The notes beneath the pieces are model-generated. The model did not search any database. It had not been told where the DNA came from and worked only from the letters and a program-made list of their open reading frames with translations. This document shows positions 35,424 through 57,418 of a stretch of DNA of 64,000 nucleotides, one piece after another (position 1 is the first letter of the stretch; each line of letters starts with the position of its first letter). This DNA comes from Thoreauomyces humboldtii (lineage: Eukaryota; Chytridiomycota; Chytridiomycetes; Spizellomycetales; Powellomycetaceae). A program made the position numbers and the translations under genes. The DNA lies in the NCBI GenBank assembly GCA_027596035.1, contig JADGJA010000004.1:1-64000 (forward strand), given 5' to 3'.

Positions 35424-36440
35424 CTATAAGCTAGCACCGCATCGTTCGAGATGTCTGCTCAGTGTGTCCCAGTCTAACACCAAGAATGTAAAGCCTGAGG
35501 TTTGCTGCCCGTCGAGAGAATCCTCGATCGTATCGGGCGCAGCTATACGACATATAGCGACAGGATGCTCAGCATCCAGGTCTGCGACCTCCATTACTGC
35601 ATGCTTCAGGACGAGTCCATCCAGGGCAACCGTGATACCTCGAGGTCCCGCATCTTCACCGACACCAAACTCGACCCTCCTGAGGTCCAGGCCCAGACCG
35701 ATCCCGACGGCCTTGACGTACGCCTCCTTGAGCGTCCAAACGCGATGAAACCTCGCCATCCTGCCTCTACGGCCCACGTCGCTCCGTCCACCCAAGTCCA
35801 TCGCGTCGACCGCTTCTTCCAGTTTCTGCACGCGTGCTCCTCGGTCAATGTACGCCCACTCGCTCTTCGTAAAGCACGTGTCGAACGCAGAGTAGAAATC
35901 CTCATCTTCCGTCTGAGATTTTGGCAGGTCCACCCGAGCCACGTCCACGCCTAGGTTCGCGCAGGACGAAGAAGCGGCCGTCACCACCCAGGATCCGTGA
36001 TGAGATGTATTGAAAGCGATGCCAGGTGCAGTCGGAGAGACCTGTGCCGCAAAAAGTCGGTCGAAGAGGAAGAACCACGCTTGAGCCATCGTGAAGGAGC
36101 GGAAGGAAGAACGTCATCCTGATACCAGCTCCGGTTTGCCGTTTTCGCCACGCTGCATCACGATCTGATGCCATATCGTTTCAGATGGAAGGTATCCCCC
36201 AACGATGAGGATAGCGCGGGCCATCAGCTGTCCGATCACCGTTCGTCGCGCATCAACGGCAAAGTGGAATCTCTTGGCCCGCGCTTGTTCATCTGGCGGA
36301 AGGAGATCGAGAAGTCTTGCGAATTGCTACGAGGAGAAGTTTAGCCTTCAGCTTTCTTCTTCGCTGGAAGCACCATGTTTAACGTCACAAACCTCCTCGG
36401 TGGGATTCCAAGACGATACGTCGAATGCCCAGCGATGCAT
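35424..36440 (-). CDS. 4'-phosphopantetheinyl transferase (Lys5/AASDHPPT type)
   Basis: The enzyme moves phosphopantetheine from CoA to carrier proteins. In fungi it serves alpha-aminoadipate reductase (lysine) and often polyketide or peptide synthases. Exons 36440-36393, 36326-36126, 36041-35424; 288 aa. Motifs in order: RWAFDVSSWNPTEE joined to QFARLLDLLP, FHFAVDARRTVIGQLMAR, GENGKPELV, FNTSHHGSWVV, magnesium-binding LGVDVARVDL, and FHRVWTLKEAYVKAVGIGLG (W-x-x-KEA-x-x-K). The C-terminus is SFGFT-like (SGFTFLVLDWDTLSRHL). No carrier-protein gene is in the window. It converges on NAA50 with 118 bases between. Confidence 0.92.
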
Positions 36441-45054: not shown

Positions 45055-45743
45055 TCAAGCTTGAAAGGGGAAACTATTCGCAGTATCGTATAGGACAGAC
45101 CAATCTCGGCATGTATGAGTGATATTAGCGCCGATCGCAGGCACGTAAGGCTCTAGGGTGGAGTCCGCCCCGCAGAGTATGGCTTGCCGTATGTAGTAAA
45201 AGCAGTGGTCTATGTGATCAGGCGTGCTGGAAGTATGGTCTTGATCGTTCCTTGCGTCGCGGTGTGGATCCGACTCGCTGCTCTTCGGACCGGAACCCCC
45301 ATGGTAGGGAAGACCCGCGACGTGCTTGCGAATGGCGTCAAGACAATGGAGCTGGTGGAACATCGAGATTCCGTAATGCAAGCTCGTTGGAGGTATGGTG
45401 ATGAAGCCGCCACCACGGGGGAAGAGCTCCAGCCATTCGGACTCGCGCAGAGGCCCGTGCTTGGCAAAGGACCCGACGTCTTTGAATGTAAGTGATCTGA
45501 GGCGCTCCTCAGAACACTTGTTTCCTAAGCCGCAAAAGAAGCAACATCAATAAAACTGTACGTTTCGTCTATGTCAATATCACCAACCATACCAAGATTG
45601 CCAGCCAGTACAAAGGTGATGAGCATGGTACCCACCAAAATAATGGCAAGGCACGACGCCAGAGTGCGCGCGACGCTGCTCTTTGTGCCGCTGTGATTGC
45701 TCAAGCCTACATTTTGGGCGAGCAAGGCTTCTGTGGACTCCAT
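45055..45743 (-). CDS. UstYa-family (DUF3328) oxidase-like membrane protein
   Basis: UstYa-family proteins are copper-dependent oxidative enzymes that cyclise ribosomal peptides (ustiloxin, asperipin, phomopsin) or act in other secondary pathways. Exons 45743-45562 and 45496-45055 give 207 aa. Layout: about 30 residues, one transmembrane segment (LASCLAIILVGTMLITFVLA), then a luminal domain with ESEWLELFPRGGGFITIP, the first metal motif in SMFHQLHCLDAIRKH (HxxHC) and the second in DHIDHCFYYIRQAILC, followed by ADSTLEP. Both HxxHC motifs are intact. An in-frame ATG at 45920 lies within the adjacent MITE-like arm, so I chose 45743. The gene diverges from the secreted tandem-peptide precursor at 46873. 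Confidence 0.87.
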
Positions 45744-45911
45744 GAAAGGGGGAGGTGGGGGCGGGAAAGAGGAAGAGAAAAGACTTCCCATCATCATCTT
45801 CCGGAGACGACAACAAATGTATATGAAGATATGTGTACTGAGTCGGGCGCGGAAAGTCAGCCGGACCTGTACGGTCGTATGGACGCCAGCGGCCACTGGA
45901 AGGAATTCAAT

Positions 45912-46401
45912 GGAATCCAACGCACCCTAACACCAGTGTCGTTTCCGTGAAACCGCATGTGCCTGTCCGCTAAATTACAGGTTGCATATGGTGCAACGTT
46001 TGAGACCGTCCCTTTCCGTCAAATTACTGTACATGTTATACAAGGCGCAACCTGTGGGACCCGTCCCTTTCCGTCAAATTACAGGTTATACACAAGGCGC
46101 ACGCGGTAAGTTAGAATGAGGAAAATTCTACAGTCGAGCGTAGAAAGTACAGTAGGTGGACTGTCACAAGAAGTTGTGGTCGTGATGCAGGCACGATTTC
46201 GGCAGAGTGGTCCTTGTCCCCCTATACTGTTTTTACGCTCGACTGTAGTAGTCCCGAGGCAAGAAACTGCGGGATAACCTGTACAGTAATTTGACGGAAA
46301 GGGACGGTCTCAAACGTTGCACCTTATGCAACCTGTAATTTAGCGGACAGGCACATGCGGTTTCACGGAAACGACACTGGTGTTAGGGTGCGTTGAATTC
46401 C
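45912..46401. mobile_element. MITE-like foldback element
   Basis: Arms of about 121 bases (45912-46032 and 46281-46401) are inverted copies, nearly identical, reading from the outside aacgcaccctaacaccagtg and ending at attactgtac. Inside are a second perfect 15-base inverted pair, ctacagtcgagcgta (46128-46142 and 46234-46248), and an extra copy of the arm segment ccgtccctttccgtcaaatt near 46060. There is no coding capacity. Size (about 490 bp) and structure fit a non-autonomous DNA transposon. Target-site duplications could not be fixed because the flanks (gaattcaa on both sides) are themselves similar. It sits between the UstYa-like and precursor genes. Confidence 0.8.
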
Positions 46402-46872
46402 TTTCCTTGAATTCCTTAATTTGCTTCATCGATGTGAGGACCAGCAAGGTGATCAACCTCGAGTGATACAGTACGTACTGGTACGCAAATGGTGGTGCAC
46501 GGATTGAGAGAGAGGGGGAAAGAGTGGAAAGGGGCGTTGCAAAGAATGGCGGTCAGGGTGTGAATACTGTATGACTGTCGGGAAGCAGTCCGGAAACAGC
46601 GGGATTAGGAAACACGAACACCCATGCTGCCAAGAAGACTGCAATGCGATAAAACAAATCACGCATTGAAACAAGACGCCCAAGTGTCTCCATCATTGTC
46701 CGCACCCATCAGCTGTGCGACGAGCAACCCGCAACAATTTGGCGTCCGCTACGCTGTTTACAGTCAAAGGGACTGCACTCTGTCAACTGTATAAAATCAG
46801 CACAATATACTGATTCCCCAGACCTCCCCAGTTCATCGGTCAACCCGCAACCATTCTTCAAAACAAGTCAAA
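46402..46872. other. Promoter region of the tandem-peptide gene
   Basis: 471 bases between the MITE-like element and the precursor ATG. The only clear signal is the TATA box listed separately. The open frame at 46453-46683 on the minus strand is of random composition. Confidence 0.4.
46790..46796 (+). promoter_or_regulatory. TATA box of the tandem-peptide precursor gene
   Basis: TATAAAA lies 83 bases upstream of the ATG at 46873. This suggests a regulated, potentially highly expressed gene, as is usual for small secreted proteins. Confidence 0.6.
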
Positions 46873-47281
46873 ATGCTTCTCAGCATCGGTCCTGTGTTCC
46901 TCGCTCTCGTTACCGTTTCTGTCGCACTTCCAGCACCTGCCCAAGTCAAAACTCTGGACAAACGCTGTACGTGACACTCTTTAATGTGACAAACCCTCGC
47001 TTCCTGTGTTCATTTTTATAAACAGGCTTTGCACATGAGAATGGCGGCATTTTTACCCACTGGTGCCCTTTCGACAACAACCCCCCTGTCGAAAGCGATG
47101 GGACCGTCAAAGCTCTGGACAAACGCTGTACGTGACACTCTTTATGTAACAAACCCAGCGCTTCGCGTGTTCATTTTTATAAACAGGCTTCGCACATGAG
47201 AATGGCGGCATTTTTACTCACTGGTGCCCTTTCGACAACAACCCCCCTGTCGAAAGCGATGGGACCGTGCAAGCCGATTAG
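46873..47281 (+). CDS. Small secreted precursor with Kex2-spaced tandem peptides (candidate RiPP precursor)
   Basis: Exons 46873-46966, 47026-47127, 47187-47281; 96 aa. Residues 1 to about 22 are a signal peptide (MLLSIGPVFLALVTVSVALP, then APA). The spacer ends LDKR at residues 28-31. Two repeats follow, residues 32-65 and 66-96, identical over their first 28 residues: each starts CFAHENGGIFTHWC and continues PFDNNPPVESDGTV. The first ends KALDKR, giving a second Kex2 site; the last ends QAD. Each core has two Cys 13 positions apart plus Phe, His and Trp. Both introns interrupt the first Cys codon at the same place (phase 1), so each core is its own class 1-1 exon. I know no matching family by sequence. 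Signal peptide, dibasic sites and identical cores are the hallmarks of fungal dikaritin precursors and of other Kex2-processed repeat proteins. It diverges from a UstYa-like gene. A secreted effector or pheromone-like peptide is the alternative. Confidence 0.75.
46945..47266 (+). repeat. Tandem duplication of a 161-bp exon-intron unit
   Basis: Two copies of a 161-base unit (46945-47105 and 47106-47266) each hold the LDKR site, a 59-base intron beginning gtacgtgacactctttatg (one extra base in the first copy) and ending tttttataaacag, and one core exon. Exonic parts differ at only a few silent or near-silent positions and the introns at a few more, so the copy is recent or under gene conversion. 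Confidence 0.93.
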
Positions 47282-47385: not shown

Positions 47386-50300
47386 ATCGTCAGCGAACAT
47401 CCCGCCGCTTTCGATGAAACGTTTGATTTCTGGGACCGCCTGGATGACTGTTTCTGGAATGCCAAAGACAAGTGTTACGGCGCACTCCATCTCCACGAGA
47501 CGAGCCTTGACAGTGGCGTGGAAAAGGAGCAGATACACCAGGAGGGTTCCGACGAGAGTGAGTGCAAAAATGATGGTCATCGCCGTTTGACCAAGCGAGT
47601 TCCTAGATTAGAAGACGAAGTGATCTTAGCGTATGTATGTGTGGTCTCACATAGAGGAAGCTCGGAGCCGTACCCGTCCAAGATGATGGATTGGAAGCTG
47701 GTATCCATGTTGTTCAGGTTATCCACCACACTATTCAGCATCTCGTTCATGAACAGCATATTGCTTTGTGCAGTTGCCGCTAGCGCCAACGGGCTGCCTT
47801 GCGCCAAGTACCCTCCAAGGTCCGTCGCGGCCGTGATGAACATGCTTATCTGGGCGTCGATGCCCGCGGTAATATTCCCGCATGCGGGTTGACAGGGGGC
47901 CGAGACCAAGGTCACTTGTTTGAGAGCCCCGATAGAAGGCGTTGCAATACAGTTCGTGCCTGTGATCGAGTCTGATTGACGGCTAACAAGGGACGAGAGA
48001 CGATCGCGATAGTTCATGAGGGGCTCGTAAGGGAGCCAGGTCGTGTTGTCATATATCAAAGACTGCAAGGAACGCAAGCGATCAATTGAGAGTTTTCCGC
48101 CACAGCGTGAAGGACAACTTTCCCACCTCTTTGCCCAGGAACACCACTGCTTGAGCAAGGGACCGCCGCTGATTCGTATAAGACATGGTTTGCGCGTAGT
48201 TAACCGAATCGACTGCTCTCAACTGTGGCGGAAGTTCGTAGAAGGTGAGAAGAGCTAATCTGTCGCCTTTTAAATCCCACGGAAAACTTACGATCGGTGC
48301 AAGCAGCAAACTGATGCCTGGCAAAGCCAATACAACGAGACCTGAAGCGTAGCGTACGACATGTTTCTTGATCGAAGATTGTTTGACCAAATCGTCAGGA
48401 TCCATGTTCCGGTTGATCATGCGGTTGGCCGCCATCGCCGCTGACTGATTGTTGACGTTGGCGCCCGAGGAAGAAGCTGGGTTCTCAAGTCCATTCTCGT
48501 CTACGCCCTGTGACGCAGCCGTCATCTCGTCGGAGATGGACTCAATCTACCATGGGAAAGCACTGGTCAGCGAAAAGGCGAGCTATGCAAGAAAAACATC
48601 CGCAGGTGCTCACCTGCTCCTCGATTTCCGTTAGCATGCTCATCAATGCCTTTTTGGGTATCATGGCGTACATCTTCAACGTTCTGGTCTGCTCGTCAGA
48701 AGAATGCCTAATCATGGGCCAGAAGACAAGGTACGCCCATCCAAGCATGCTCAGCACTAGAAGACACAAAAGTCCGTAGAGCACGTAGACATTTTGCATG
48801 GAGGACTGGATCCAGGTTTCCTGGCCCGTCGACATGGCATCGTCGAAGCCCGCCGCGATGGTGAGGACGTTGTCCAGAAAATATCGCACTGTATTGTCCG
48901 TCTGGAGAACGTTATTTTGAAAGTACGAATAATCTGGGAGAAAAATCAGATTAGATTCCGATTGACATATGGATGGAGGCGAGGCGCCGACTGCGACCAA
49001 AAGCACTTACCACGCCCTTCAATGGTTGTCCCATACTGATGGATTGTTTTCGCAACTTCGTAAGCGTTCGTGTGAGCCAAGTCCTTGTAAGGCACAGGGT
49101 AGCTGGATGTCTATAGCACAGAAAACAATGAATCAGTCCGAGAAATTGATGAGATAGGTCTCTATAATCCGACTTACCTCTAGAGTAATGGAATCAGCTG
49201 CCATGTAGAACTGTGCCAGATAAGGCAAGTAAAACGTGGTGTAGTTTGTCATCAGACTTGACAATGACGCCATCGACGAATCATACACATCGCGACTCGC
49301 TACAGGGTCGGTCGAACTAGAGATCTGAGTCAGATCCCTTACAAGTCCAGCGAGGAAAATGGCGGTTTTCGAGAGACGAGTCCCGCGCACGAAACCGTTG
49401 ATGGAAGACTCGGCGGCTGAGAACGACCATAGACCGATGGAAAATGCTACAACAATATTGGCTAGGTAAAAGCAAGTGGTAAGCTTTTGATTCCGATCAA
49501 GCTCGACCACGGGTGCTTTTAAGCGAGTTTGCAGCTGCATCTTGTTGTAGACCTGCAACAAAAATGGACGCATAAGACAAAAACGATCACAGGAATGAGT
49601 GCATTCATTACCTTGAGCTTGGCCTCCCTTTCGGATGATTTCGTGCTTCCTCCCGCGCTTTCACTCGGCATTCGCCCTTCTAGTCTGGTTGTATCATCCA
49701 TGTCCGGAGAGATGTTAAACCCGACACCTTTCGCCTCCCCACTGCCAACTCTTTCCAAATTTCCCATTCCCTCATCATCCTCGTCGGTCCGCGGTTGCAT
49801 ACTCATTCGACGCCGCAACTGCGAGGTGTTTTTCACAACGGGAAACTCTCGGGAAGGCATCTCGTCCTGGTCGTTTCGTATGCTCGATCGGCTCAGAACA
49901 ATTTCGGGAACCGTCACGACTTCGTTGGCAAGGGAGTCATCCGAATCCTCTCGGGTCTCCTTGACACCAGAAGCACCAGCTATCGCATCCGACCGCGTGC
50001 CCGTATCCATCTGTGCATGCATGCGACCACCGGCCTGCTGAGCCAGGGAAGCCCCGACTTTCGTTGACGGAGAAGATCGCATGGATCCATGACGTTGAAT
50101 GGGTGCCGAGCTGGTCATGCGCATTTCGATCTCTTCAATCTCTTCGGCCATCATCATGTACTTTGCGGCCGTTTCTTTCTCGTTCTAGAAATCAAGCGCT
50201 GAGTGAAGGATATTCGATAGATAACGTGCCAGGAGCGCCTACCTTGATCTGAAGCAGGAAACTCCCATACATCCGGAGCAGCACCTTGCTTTTTGGCCAC

Positions 50301-52435
50301 CTGGCAATAAGCTTCTTATAGTAATCCGTGGCCCTCTGCTCAGCCTCACTGATCCGCTGCAAAAAGATTGGATAGGTCTTCGGATCGCGCCCGCGCTGTC
50401 CGCTTCGAACATGCGACAGGAATGCCCGAAGTTCGATGAGCGTTGCGAGGTGATCGCGCCTCGCACCGTTTTGCATTGTCTGGAACTCCACATATGACGA
50501 GCTGAGAAGATGTTGATATATCAGCGTAAACTTGAACTGATGTACATGTCTTTACGCTCGTACATGTTGAGAGTCGATGAGTTGAGTCCCTCCGTTCTCT
50601 TGGACTGCTCCAGGATTCGATCCTGAACAACCCGTTAGTTTTTTCATCACGGAACACAAGCCCTGCTCAACCTTCGTACCTGCATAAAGATGAAGAATCG
50701 AGCATCAAATGGCGGTTTCAGAGACTTCGCTAGATTTACAAAATAGACTGGCTCCTGGCTTTCGGACGTATAGGTTTCTAGATAACCGGCATAACTGCTC
50801 GGAGGTTAACGCAGGTCAATTTAATACTACAACTTGGCACTTACATTAGCTTGAGCATCGAATTCCGGGGGAACTGGTCGAACCCTTCCCCGAAAATCTC
50901 TTCCATGATGTAGAGGGCTTGCGGGGTACGGTTATCGTGGACGAACCGACAAGCGAGCTCAACTTCCGCGGGATGAGTGAAGACCTTGATTGTCTGCAAA
51001 TGCGGAAGGCCGTTAGTGAAAGCTTTCTCATAATGGAAGCAAGACTGACCTTTGGTCTGGTCCGCGTCCCAGTGATGGTATGAAGATCACGCATGGCTTG
51101 GATCCCGTCAAAGCCTTCTCCTCTTTCCGCCTTATCTTCCAGCGATTCAGTGGTCTGACGATTTGGACCACTCGTCACCCCTAGGTCCTGCATGCTCTTC
51201 CCGAGCCCCTTGTGCTTCATCTGTATCCGGTTGTAAACCCTTCGAACTGTGATTCGGAAAATGGCGCGGCAGGTGGCCGCACCCGTGATGGCGCCGACCA
51301 GCACGCTGACAACCGCAGCGATGGGAAGCGTTTTACCAGGGCTTTTCGTGACGTGGGACACTAGAGCTACGACGGCTGCGAAAGCCGAAGCCATGAAGAG
51401 TGCGGCCCGGAGCTCGTTGTGAGATCGAATGTAGAAGGGTTGATACCGGATTATCAGAACGGAAAGCAGCGCCGTAACCGGGATCAGAAAAGCTATTCGG
51501 AGGACAGCCGAGCTTGACAGAGTAAAAACGAGAGTAACGAGAATTCGAGATATAGCATAGATGGTGTCTAGTCTTCCGATAGGAACTCTCGCCGTTTTGT
51601 TGCTCCTGTTCGGACTGGTGTCGAGGTAGATGGCTGACATGCACACATTGTACGGTACGAAGACCATCAGCACGAATAAAACGATGATGGTCAATGCGCT
51701 ATTGCTTCCGCTGAAGCATTCATGGTTCGGATACTCGACGAGTGTATTGTTTGGTCCCGAGCAAGTCACGGCGACGAAAAGAATTTCGATGACGGGGATG
51801 AAAAGAATAGTGCCCAGAAGCTGCGTGAGCAGTCGTAGCGTTTTGAGCGCATACAAAGAGATCCCGGCGAACTAGACACGGTGACAGAATAATGTGGCAT
51901 CTGTCAACATATGTCCGATCACTACCTTAGGACACTGCTGCTAACCCAATACCTTTCCACTTCCGAAGCTCATAGCAACCTCCACCGCAGAAACAACCGC
52001 AAGCATGACAAGGCCAATGACCACACCAAGCAATACTAAAAATCCACTGTAGCTGTGCGGTCGATAGCTCAGCGGATTGGTGATATACGGCGCCCAGTCC
52101 GGCATGTCGTCATAAAAGATCGGGTTGAAGGCAAACGAAATCAGCTGCATGTCCTCGAACAAAGTGATAAGAACTGAGAGCAGGGAATTGACGTCGTTGT
52201 CGTGCACCCTTTGTTCGAGCAAAGACTGCAATGTTAGATCAGGGCGAACAAGGTCAATGGACGATGTGTCATACATCGAGTACAGCACGCTGAAGGTGAC
52301 ATCTTCGACTTTGCTCTGAAATGAGCAATAAGTTGAATACTTGCTGCTATCCAATGGAGTCTCTCGTTCACTTCCTCGACATACCGCAAACGACGTTGCC
52401 ACGTGCTTTTCAGCATTTCCTTGCTGATTGACCAT
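47365..52435 (-). CDS. TmcB-like large multi-pass membrane protein
   Basis: Minus-strand exons: 52435-52385, 52315-51953, 51871-51050, 50993-50845, 50794-50680, 50622-50546, 50501-50243, 50184-49612, 49552-49178, 49110-49011, 48933-48614, 48546-48127, 48062-47674, 47602-47365; 1416 aa with every junction in phase. The order fits the tiny-macrocysts TmcB-like family: an N-terminal multi-pass region (SVLYSMYDTSS, LITLFEDMQLISFAFNP, about eight hydrophobic segments); a helical repeat region (HPAEVELACRFVHDN, ALYIMEEIFGEGFDQFPRNS, LATLIELRAFLSHV, YYKKLIARWPKSKVLLRMYG, MMAEEIEEIE); a disordered Ser/Arg/Asp linker; then more transmembrane segments around an extracellular loop with cysteines (CQPACGNITAG). 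Its function in fungi is unknown; a sensory role is inferred from the family in amoebae. The family call is from layout and motifs, not a search. Confidence 0.75.
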
Positions 52436-52917: not shown

Positions 52918-55900
52918 CTAGTAATCCGAATCCCCATCGCTATCACTAACTGCTCTAGCGGCCGCGCTCGCCTTCTTCCTGGAACCCGCCCCTGAGTCTG
53001 CCATCTCTGACACGCTGCGGACCATCTCGCTGCATCGTATCGCATCTCGCTCGTCGTCGTCGTCATCGGGATGAATCAGAGCCGCCGGTGGCCAGTACTG
53101 CGAGAGGGCGGCGTGGAAGGCGTCGGGGGCCCAGAGCAGATACGACGTCAGAAGAAACTTCGGGTCCTTTCGCCACTGGGCAAGAAGCTTTTCCCGAGTG
53201 TCGACTTGGGCCGAAACGAGGGCGGCGACGAGGGTGCTGACCTTCTGCTGCGTCTGACCCCACGGTTTTGTGATGGTGACGGTTTTGGTGTCGAGGAAGG
53301 GAAAGAGAAGTGGGAAGATCTCGACGGGACCATTCTTTTTGCTGGATTTCTTCGCCTTCTTCTTCTTCTGTTGTGGCTGAGCGATCCGAGCGACAAGGGG
53401 TTCTTTCGGGGGTGCCATCAGCGGAATCTTTCCTTCGATAAGACTCCTCGCTAGCCACCTACACCGGTCGTCGAGACGGGGCAGTTCCACCTCTCGAGTG
53501 GGGAGCTCCCACATCTTGGGACCGTAAGTGGGTACGCAGAACCCGAGGACGCAGTCCTGTACAGGATCCCATCTAGGTTCCGGTTGGTCGACCACCTTGC
53601 CGGTTCGACAGAGACTGCGAGGTGCGACGGGAGCGATCCACGCTGCATCGACGGCTGACACACCCTTGAGCCAGACGCGAGTAAGGTCAGTTCCGTCTGC
53701 CGCCTTGACTTGCGCGTTGAGACGGGTGGCCACGACGCCGCTGTTGTCCGCCGCCATCTTCTCTTCCCTTCCCACAAGCTCCTCGTAAACGACGAAGCGA
53801 GGAGCGGGGCGCTCACGATTCAAACAGCTGGATGGATGAATCTGACCGACTTGTTCCTTTCCGCCCCAAAGTGTTCGATATACAGGAACGTACTTCTGTC
53901 CTGCGTACCCTTTGCTCGTCGCTTCGTCCAGCTGCGCCACGCGGTCAGCGAAGCCTGCAAGTATTACCTGCAGAATCGCTGCGGAGTCACGTGCGGACGG
54001 CGGTGGAAGTCCTGGATCAACGCAGAGACCCGCCACAGCCGGGTAGAGCTTGTTGTTCCCGCTTAGGCTGAGTTTGACGAGATTGGTGAGCTGCTGACGG
54101 AGCTTGCGCATTTCCTCCATAGCCTTTGGCCGTAGGAAATTGGCATCGCAGAAGGCAGTCGGGTCACCTCCTCGTCGGTTCGATTCTGCAGTATGTGCGC
54201 CAATGGCCGTGAGGAGTCGCAGAGCATCTGACGTAGGTGGATTGCCTGAGAAAACAAGCATCGTCTTGTAAAATGATGCTCGTTTGGTGCTTCGCTTGTC
54301 CTTTTCGTCCGCGTCTACGTCTTCATCATCTGAGTCGCTCTTGGGACGCCCAATGATATCCTCGTCACGAATGAAGGGATCCCCGACAGAAAGACCCGAT
54401 ACGATGGCGATGACATATGCCAAGATATTCCCTGGCTGCGACGCTGCGACGATCACCATCTTAGCGTAACGAGGCGAGACAGGGAATTTTGACATGACAC
54501 GTCCGAGCTCGGTGATCTTGAGCGTGTTAGATTCGTGGTCTACGGCGCCGAGATAGGTCAGGAGCTTCTCTGCAGCTCGCAAGTTTGCTTTTCCAGGTGG
54601 TGTTGGGAACGGGAAACCGACGACGTTGTTGATCCCCATGCTCTTCATCGAGAGTACGACGCCTTCGATAGGGATGCGAAGGATTTCCGGTTGGGAAAAC
54701 TGCTCAAAATAGTCATTGAAGACCGCCGAGCTGAAGAGTCGGTAGCAGTGACCAGGTCCGACACGACCAGCACGACCAGCACGTTGATCTGCCGAGGCTC
54801 GGGATGTCCAGCACACCTGGTACGTCTGAACGCCAGAGTGCGAGTCAAACTTTCGCTCCTTCACCTTGCCGCAGTCGACGACATATTTGATGCCGGGGAT
54901 AGTCAGAGAAGTCTCAGCTACGTTGGTGGCAACCACGACGAGACGAGTTCCTGGGGGTGGCGACTCGAACACGCGCATCTGCGCGGCTGTTGGCAAGAGC
55001 GAGTAAAGAGGCAGGACGTGAAGTGGTAGAGCTTCATCTCTACTCGAAGGCTGGAACTTCTCGAGCTCGTCGTCTTCGTCTCCGCTCAGGCCCCCAAGCA
55101 CATCGACGTCCTCTTCTTCGGAGTCACCTTCCGAGTCGCTCCCGTCTTCCTCCTGGTAGTCGTCGTTTCCGCCGCGTCCAAGCTCGACGTCCGCTTCAGC
55201 AGTCTCGTCAGCCTCCCCGAAGAGGGCGTCAGAACGATCCGCAGCCGAAGCTTTCGAGTGTTCCTCCAAATCATTGCGTTCCGCCTCCTTCGCTCTCCGC
55301 AGCGGAAAGGCCTTGCGCAGGTTCCGCACAAGGACTTGAATCTCCTGCTGACCAGTCATGAAGACCAAGATGCCACCTGGGGGGAGTTGTGTGTGGATCT
55401 TCGTGATCTTTTTCAGCGCTTCGCTGCCATAATCGATCTCAGGAGTCTTTTTGTTATAATGAATAACAACCTTAAAACCGCAATCGTTCAGTAAAGAAAA
55501 CTCTTCCCCGCAGTTACTCGCAATTGATCCCACCTTGTGCTGTCGGCCATCGACCTTTACAACCGGTGGGCGCTGCAGAACTGGGAACAGTGTTTCGTTC
55601 ATAGTGAAGTCCTCCACCCGGAGAGTCGCAGACATGATAACCAGCTTCAGAGGTTTTACGCCAACCACCTTCCCAGAGTTCCGCAACGAAACGATCCTGG
55701 TGAGCCAGCCGATGAGAACATCGGTTCCGATGGTTCGCTCGTGAGCTTCATCTATGATGATGCAGGAGTACTTCTGCAAGAGTATGTCCGGTGGTCCGTC
55801 TTTACTGGCCGACGGATGTGACTCCCCTCCCGCCGCAACGCTCAGCTCTCGTAGCAGAATACCATCCGTCATGAACTTTATACGCGTGTTCTTGCCCGTT

Positions 55901-57418
55901 CCACCCTTATCGTATCGAATTTGATAAGCGACCTCTCCGCTCTTCAGCGCCATCTCGTCCGCGACACGTTGCGCCATGGATACCGCTGCGACTCGACGCG
56001 GCTGGGTAATGCCAACCATGCCTGGGAATTGAGGGTGCGCGGGATCACCGAATCCAGATTCGTACAGGAACTGCGGTACCTGAGTCGTCTTTCCGGACCC
56101 GGTCTCGCCACACAGGATCGTGACGTCGTTCTGGAAGATGGCTTCCATGATTGGCTGTTCTTCCATGACGACTGGAAGCGATATTCGAGCAAGCTGGATA
56201 GACTCCGGGCGGTTGACCGGCACGTGGAACGCCGACTGCGCTGCTATTCGCGGACCTTTTGCCTTCATAGTGGGAGCAACCACCGCTTTCTTCTTCGATG
56301 GAGCGGGAGCCGGCAAGCTTTCTCCATCCACGACATCGGCGGCCCAGATATCTTTCCTTCCGCGCTGAACAACGACCTCCTCCTCCTCCTGCTCCATGGC
56401 TTCATCGTCAGTGTCATCCAAGTCGCTGTTGGAGAGATCAGAGTCCGAGGCAACCATAGGGGCAGCCTTCTCCTTCTGTTGCTTCTTCTTCTTTCGCTTC
56501 GGAATGGCGGTGTCGCCAACAGCGTCGTCTGCCTTGCGTTTGAGGGCTCCTCCAAACACCGCAGGTGCCTCCTCCTTCCGAGCGTGCTCTCCAAAAACCT
56601 GCACATCCGCTGGACCAGCCACGGCTTGTCCAAACGCTTGCCCTACCAATCCCAGCGAAGAGTTCGCGGCGCTCGGCTGAGCGGCAGCCATCAAGTCCTC
56701 GCCATCATCGAAGTCGTGACCGTCGTGGTCGCTGCCGGCGCCGGCGGGCACGTAGAGCTCCGCGCCGTCGTCCTCGTCCTCCATATCCTCCTTGTACTCC
56801 TGGGCATCCTTCTCGACTACCAAGCGGCCCGAGGCATCAGCGTAGGACGATGCGATGCCAGCTCGCTCCTCCAACAGGGCTTGACGCATGCGCTCTCTTG
56901 CAGTGAGTTTCTAGAGGGGAAAGAGTCCTGTCAGATCTGCAGTCCGGGCGCCTGAATCTGCCACGTGCGCCCCCTCCCACCTTCTGCCCGAACGCTTTGC
57001 TGGATCGAAGGAGGCCGGAGGAGAAGGTGGTCTCACTCAGCCTCTGCAGTAGATTAATCCGTTCGTCCTTCTTCATCTGCTTCTCGATGAACTTTTCCAG
57101 ACGCTTCTTCTTCTTGGAAGTCATCTTTCCCGTCGGTTCCTCGGGAAGCAACGTCGTGTCGAGCGTTCGGGCCTTGTCCTTGGGTATGATGATGTCCGGG
57201 ATGGATGAAGAGGATGCATTGTATGCGACTCCATCGTCTGCCAGGGACGATACTGCTGGCGGTAGCGCGGGAGACGGGTTCTGTGCGGTTGTCGCAGGAC
57301 GTTTCCTTGCCAGCTGCTTGAGGCCACCGTCGCGGGCCGACGGATGTGGCTTTGCTGTCTTTGCCAGATGCGAGCCGGCCCTTGCCTTCTCGTTGTACCG
57401 AGGCCTGAGCTTCCCCAT
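52918..57418 (-). CDS. DHR1: DEAH-box RNA helicase DHX37/Dhr1 (Ecm16)
   Basis: The helicase releases U3 snoRNA during 40S subunit assembly. Minus-strand exons 57418-56981 and 56910-52918; 1476 aa. Exon 1 begins MGKLRPRYNEKARAG and ends with the basic helix SKKKKRLEKFIEKQMKKDER. Exon 2 starts KLTARERMRQALLEER. Helicase motifs: I GETGSGKTTQVPQF, Ia TQPRRVAAVSMA, II IIDEAHERTIGTD, III IMSATLRVEDF, IV ILVFMTGQQEI, V ATNVAETSLTIPGI, VI QRAGRAGRVGPGHCYRLFS. Acidic low-complexity inserts (near 55080-55200) lie between the RecA domains, as in other Dhr1 proteins. HA2 and OB regions follow. LTV1 at 9 kb acts in the same pre-40S pathway. The antisense open frames here are by-products of its GC-rich codons. 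Confidence 0.95.

Follow-up and report, generated by a model that had tools for sequence, protein, structure and literature searches.

A UstYa-family gene beside a two-core Kex2-type precursor in a chytrid suggests that UstYa-type ring-peptide chemistry may occur outside the fungi of earlier reports

The closest described systems are the ustiloxin and phomopsin pathways and that of asperipin-2a. In established pathways of this kind, cyclisation of the peptides set free from Kex2-type precursors requires UstYa-type proteins. In the former a secreted, repeated precursor lies beside UstYa-type oxidases, several of which are needed together with a tyrosinase, and the core contains tyrosine (PMC7329392). 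Asperipin-2a from Aspergillus flavus is the product of a cluster of four genes (aprA, aprY, aprT and aprR) with a transporter and a reductase; its one UstYa-type protein, AprY, is essential, and the account in PMC6514808 names no tyrosinase in the cluster. The asperipin-2a core, FYYTGY, is cross-linked via its tyrosines. In the survey of PMC7329392, DUF3328 genes are most numerous directly beside Kex2-repeat precursors; 65.6% of the repeats with such a neighbour contain tyrosine and about a third do not, and the known repeats measure 8-14 aa. The same source reports that the six phyla other than Ascomycota and Basidiomycota yielded no DUF3328 proteins, and that none of 178 Kex2-repeat genes from 19 chytrid strains had a DUF3328 neighbour. 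UstYa proteins have further substrates, as in the case of cyclochlorotine (PMC12048977).

Here we describe a pair of genes from a stretch of 64,000 nucleotides (the whole stretch analysed, called the window below) in which a UstYa-family gene and a Kex2-type precursor gene stand head to head and are transcribed divergently, with their start codons 1,129 bp apart. The splice sites of both genes were read from the sequence and the signal peptide was judged by hydropathy. The features of the locus are as follows.

45055-45743, minus strand: UstYa-family gene, two exons, 206 aa (spliced model, PF11807 match)
45202-45216, minus strand: second HxxHC motif, HIDHC, UstYa residues 154-158 (sequence check)
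45343-45357, minus strand: first HxxHC motif, HQLHC, UstYa residues 107-111 (sequence check)
45606-45662, minus strand: hydrophobic stretch, probable membrane anchor, UstYa residues 28-46 (hydropathy only)
45909-46404, no strand assigned: long-inverted-repeat element between both genes, 496 bp, with 131-nt arms that are 97% complementary
46790-46796, plus strand: TATAAAA, possible TATA box of the precursor gene (read in the sequence)
46873-47281, plus strand: precursor gene, three exons, 96 aa (spliced model)
46873-46941, plus strand: signal-peptide-like N-terminus, about residues 1-23 (hydropathy)
46945-47268, plus strand: 161-bp tandem duplication, two copies, each with spacer, intron and core (Tandem Repeats Finder)
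46960-46965, plus strand: first KR (Kex2-type) site, residues 30-31 (sequence check)
46966-47108, plus strand: core 1, residues 32-59, split by the intron 46967-47025 (spliced model)
47121-47126, plus strand: second KR site, residues 64-65 (sequence check)
47127-47269, plus strand: core 2, residues 66-93, split by the intron 47128-47186 (spliced model)

The UstYa gene consists of the exons 45743-45593 and 45524-45055, with the ATG at 45743 and a stop codon that ends at 45055. In the sequence model its 68-nt intron (45592-45525) has GT-AG borders and the phase agrees on both sides. A Pfam profile scan of the 206-aa protein with PF11807 (UstYa, formerly DUF3328) gave 73.4 bits and an E value of 3.2e-20 at a cut-off of 25 bits, in an alignment that spans only positions 123-214 of the 220 in the profile. 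Residues 28-46 have the highest 19-residue Kyte-Doolittle mean of the protein (2.58) and would fit as the probable N-terminal membrane anchor that is usual in this family. The protein further contains ELFPRGGGFITIP, which starts at residue 83, and two HxxHC motifs, which are also present in 11 of 13 homologues; start to start the motifs are 47 residues apart here, compared with 21-41 in those 11 proteins. All 15 alignment columns that are invariant among the 14 sequences are preserved. By profile and motifs the protein is thus a member of the UstYa family. A sequence search matched no solved structure.

The precursor gene is composed of the exons 46873-46966, 47026-47127 and 47187-47281; both of its introns are 59 nt long, have GT-AG borders and interrupt the frame in the same phase. 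The N-terminus of the predicted protein has a top 12-residue hydropathy mean of 2.76. This signal-like start is followed by a short pro-region ending in LDKR, the first core, a KALDKR spacer, the second core, the residues QAD and the stop codon. The two cores, which begin CFAHENGGIFTHWC, are identical over 28 residues and each is preceded by LDKR (core unit 28-31 aa). Both start with CF and have two cysteines, at positions 1 and 14, and there is no tyrosine in the 96 residues. The precursor matched one place in the assembly, as three exons, and no second copy was found in the genome. Hence the original prediction of a 96-aa two-core precursor with two KR sites, adjacent to and divergent from a UstYa-type gene with an anchor-like stretch, ELFPRGGGFITIP and both HxxHC motifs intact, was borne out at exactly the coordinates it had given.

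Tandem Repeats Finder scored the 161-bp repeat at 583 with 94% matches. Since the unit holds spacer, intron and core, exon 2 is a phase-1 cassette that carries one core and one Kex2 site; skipping of this exon (102 nt) would preserve the reading frame. The core copies differ at 3 of 84 nucleotide positions and all three differences are synonymous. The spacer copies show one amino-acid change, from KTLDKR to KALDKR, and the intron copies four substitutions and two indels. About 23% of random changes in the core codons are synonymous, which gives a probability of about 0.012 for three out of three at kappa 2 (0.008-0.018 across the transition biases tried). The raw difference rate of core versus intron is not significant (Fisher P 0.44); the comparison of the estimated non-synonymous core sites with the intron gave P 0.047. 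These values, with a synonymous excess of three events, hint at selection that keeps both cores alike. A six-frame scan, from which low-complexity words were left out, looked across the window for 8-residue words that recur exactly within 700 nt and found the precursor repeat as the sole case.

A precursor of this kind lies below the published mining rules. PMC7329392 demands three or more tandem repeats, each 8 aa or longer and separated by Kex2 sites, and the present precursor has only two repeats. Under the rule given in PMC6339444, cutting at KR or RR must yield four or more fragments, and two KR sites give three. More than two copies are also required according to PMC11109268. As stated, the detection rules of both surveys (PMC7329392, PMC6339444) would have missed a two-copy precursor, and since this one is in addition split by introns, more such loci may be hidden.

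The host had been predicted to be zoosporic rather than a member of the Dikarya, and the genome agrees with this. A DHX37 gene at 52918-56910 (Pfam DHX37_C), which starts 5.6 kb past the precursor on the same contig, is closest to the Thoreauomyces humboldtii protein: of 1330 aligned positions 1252 match and 44 are gaps, which amounts to about 97% if the gaps are set aside. The next matches are from Geranomyces, Powellomyces, Fimicolochytrium and Spizellomyces, and among the best 120 the first named match outside the chytrids and their kin is at rank 61. Thoreauomyces is placed in Chytridiomycota, Spizellomycetales, Powellomycetaceae. The genome also encodes a protein of the flagellar PACRG type (PF10274, E 2.1e-28). 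We reject contamination as unlikely because the chytrid DHX37 shares the contig and because the coding GC3 of the pair (0.62 for UstYa, 0.58 for the precursor) is like that of other genes in the window (MTHFR 0.62, DHX37 0.63). The public DHX37 model of T. humboldtii lacks blocks that are present in the window gene, including conserved helicase sequence; these gaps are probably annotation errors, and other genes may be absent from that annotation too.

A search of the 20.7-Mb assembly with PF11807 returned one match, the gene at the locus. The protein itself matched its own gene and, weakly, a frame on contig C230 (E 0.1). As this frame contains stops and overlaps an 867-aa chitin synthase frame (PF03142, E 6.8e-199), the match is due to chance and a second UstYa copy on C230 was rejected. 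Proprotein-convertase P-domains occur at two loci in the genome. On C132 such a domain adjoins an S8 protease frame, which makes it likely that a Kex2-like enzyme is encoded there. The second match (C365:14214-14537) has three internal stop codons, which may reflect introns or a decayed copy.

Next to be considered are the relatives of the two proteins. Among 147 candidates we found 13 UstYa homologues at E up to 0.001; nine of them carry an organism name, all from Ascomycota or Basidiomycota, and four do not. The best, from Tetrapyrgos nigripes, has 32% identity. No chytrid occurs among the named homologues, though the database includes proteins of T. humboldtii and of other relatives. Since a close annotated ortholog would share many words with the query, the gene is absent, unassembled or unannotated in those relatives; a divergent chytrid member of the family could have escaped the word-sharing search. 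In a tree of 14 rows the UstYa protein joins Tetrapyrgos (Basidiomycota). The support is weak (82/60) and the branches are long, and the tree thus argues for neither descent nor transfer as the origin of the gene. For the precursor, none of 27 word-sharing candidates was a homologue at E up to 1. Among the titles and abstracts listed from the open-licence literature on UstYa/DUF3328 in chytrids or early-diverging fungi and on RiPP clusters in Chytridiomycota, none reported a chytrid UstYa gene. Since the survey in PMC7329392 likewise has no DUF3328 proteins outside Ascomycota and Basidiomycota, a chytrid pair appears to be new to the literature.

The locus had been called dikaritin-like, and this holds as an analogy: a UstYa gene stands beside a secreted, repeated Kex2-type precursor, here with two repeats. 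In other respects the resemblance ends. The tyrosine that is ether-linked in known products is missing, the 28-residue core exceeds the known repeats of PMC7329392 two- to threefold in length, there are two copies, and the host, nearest to Thoreauomyces, belongs to the Chytridiomycota and not to the Dikarya. Clustered partners belong to the older five-gene definition of dikaritins, and not all of them are always present; among the 33 other ORFs of the window that were scanned there was no tyrosinase, methyltransferase or transporter, and the sole peptidase was an aspartyl protease about 40 kb from the pair. By definition, then, the locus is not a dikaritin. The statement that exactly this pair makes dikaritins was too strong, since a tyrosinase is required for ustiloxin and phomopsin as well (PMC7329392). 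Asperipin-2a is the nearer model, because its repeated Kex2-type precursor is likewise paired with a single UstYa-type protein. It differs from the present locus in its tyrosine cross-links, in its Aspergillus host and in its larger cluster, of which we found the counterparts of two genes.

By this analogy we propose a minimal two-gene, RiPP-like and asperipin-2a-like locus, in which the UstYa protein would oxidise the peptide of its neighbour; we regard this reading as evenly balanced between right and wrong. In such a pathway both genes would be expressed and spliced as modelled and the precursor would enter the secretory pathway, where a Kex2-like protease would cut after LDKR and release two copies of the peptide beginning CFAHENGGIFTHWC. 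The membrane-anchored UstYa protein, in the same compartment, would then use its double HxxHC site to oxidise the peptide. Since the core is free of tyrosine, a cross-link between side chains would be most plausible, or else a hydroxylation, with Trp, His, Phe or Cys as the residue modified. A Tyr-free cross-link at one of these residues, in a UstYa-modified peptide of a flagellated chytrid, is a tentative suggestion that we consider more likely wrong than right.

One argument for a link is position: the single UstYa gene found in the assembly directly adjoins a two-core Kex2-type precursor. If one assumes 6,000-9,000 genes and 9.4-20 precursors per genome, the latter taken from three-copy precursors, adjacency by chance has a probability of 0.2-0.7% for direct neighbours and of 0.6-2% within three genes; two-copy precursors must be commoner than three-copy ones and it was its appearance that drew attention to this pair, so that the true figure is higher. 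Even so, this favours a link. The PF11807 match well above the cut-off, the intact motifs and invariant residues, the synonymous core differences, the Kex2-like locus and the published association of DUF3328 genes with such precursors also count for the proposed pathway. Against it count the surveyed chytrid precursors, which lack a DUF3328 neighbour, the other substrates of UstYa proteins, the long core without tyrosine, the two copies, the partial span of the HMM, the 47-residue spacing of the motifs, the 496-bp element between the genes and the lack of a shared promoter word beyond chance. The longest word common to both promoters is 9 nt, a length of at least 9 was reached in 94 of 300 shuffles, and a shared promoter motif was accordingly rejected. 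Altogether we judge the odds to be about even that the two genes are linked and that the peptide is oxidatively modified.

The alternative that survives best, and which we still consider rather unlikely, is an unmodified secreted peptide with a Cys1-Cys14 disulfide that acts as an effector, an antimicrobial or a signal, while the adjacent UstYa gene is unrelated to it and its protein serves a different substrate. The two cysteines of the core, at positions 1 and 14, speak for it. The 178 chytrid precursors reported without a DUF3328 neighbour (PMC7329392) imply that precursors of this type work without the enzyme, and PMC6339444 describes chytrid precursors with longer motifs whose roles are not known. 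The existence of other UstYa substrates (PMC12048977) and the inserted repeat element that parts the genes point the same way. This alternative has to reckon, however, with the low chance of adjacency under the assumed numbers, with a UstYa gene that is the sole one found, and with the absence of any other biosynthetic partner for it among the 33 further ORFs of the window that were scanned. Chytrid precursors in the surveys resemble ours in the signal peptide, the KR-separated repeats and the long motifs noted in Chytridiomycota (PMC6339444); they differ in that ours has two repeats and the DUF3328 neighbour that those in PMC7329392 lack.

It is improbable that the precursor encodes a peptide for mating or signalling of the kind known as alpha-pheromones in ascomycetes, with no tie to UstYa. 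The architecture of signal peptide, pro-region and KR-separated repeats is the same, and two cysteines and a Trp also occur in some alpha-pheromones (PMC6339444). However, no Ste13 dipeptide (XA or XP) follows the KR sites, the cores being different and starting with CF, and a UstYa gene is adjacent; the putative pheromone genes in PMC7329392 are, with three exceptions, reported without a DUF3328 neighbour. A search of the genome for a STE2-type receptor gave no match, and the control genomes were likewise silent.

We give equally little credence to the idea that the expression of one gene or of both departs from the model, owing to wrong splicing or a decaying locus: the lack of a precursor homologue among the 27 candidates and of a chytrid among the named UstYa matches would fit it, but the open frames and agreeing intron phases in both genes, the invariant UstYa residues, the exclusively synonymous core differences and a GC3 like that of other window genes speak against it.

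If the reading with a Tyr-free cross-link is true, the chemistry of UstYa on peptides would extend beyond Dikarya, and there would be a two-gene, Tyr-free subclass in which the number of cores grows by duplication of phase-1 intron-exon cassettes. With such a pair in a chytrid one can ask whether the chemistry is older than Dikarya or came in by acquisition, and the Tyr-free core points to unexplored reactions.

Part of the centre of the 496-bp element (about 46128-46248) has short matches on five contigs (C480, C182, C574, C174 and C426), as a nested small transposable element would have. The surroundings look like ordinary genes and not like a conventional secondary-metabolite cluster. The Pfam scan covered, besides the pair, 33 of the ORFs of the window: 17 had a family at E up to 0.001 and 16 had none, some of the latter probably being antisense frames. 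The families are kinesin, PIG-M-type mannosyltransferase (two ORFs), aspartyl protease, ALG3, LTV, MTHFR (two), Bap31, parts of histidine kinases (three), DUF5600, GNAT, phosphopantetheinyl transferase, MitMem_reg and DHX37. Beside the precursor, between 47326 and 51871, the minus-strand frames 47577-48218, 48082-48546, 48542-49006, 49133-49660, 49519-50184 and 50846-51871 reached no Pfam family over the cut-off and look from their sequence like one long multi-exon membrane protein. In the genome, tyrosinase gave five matches, on C36, C122 and C58, and none on C334, the contig of the UstYa gene. An Rfam scan found two tRNAs elsewhere in the window and gave no match at the locus. The phosphopantetheinyl transferase-type ORF lies at 35424-36113 on the minus strand (PF01648, E 5.6e-12).
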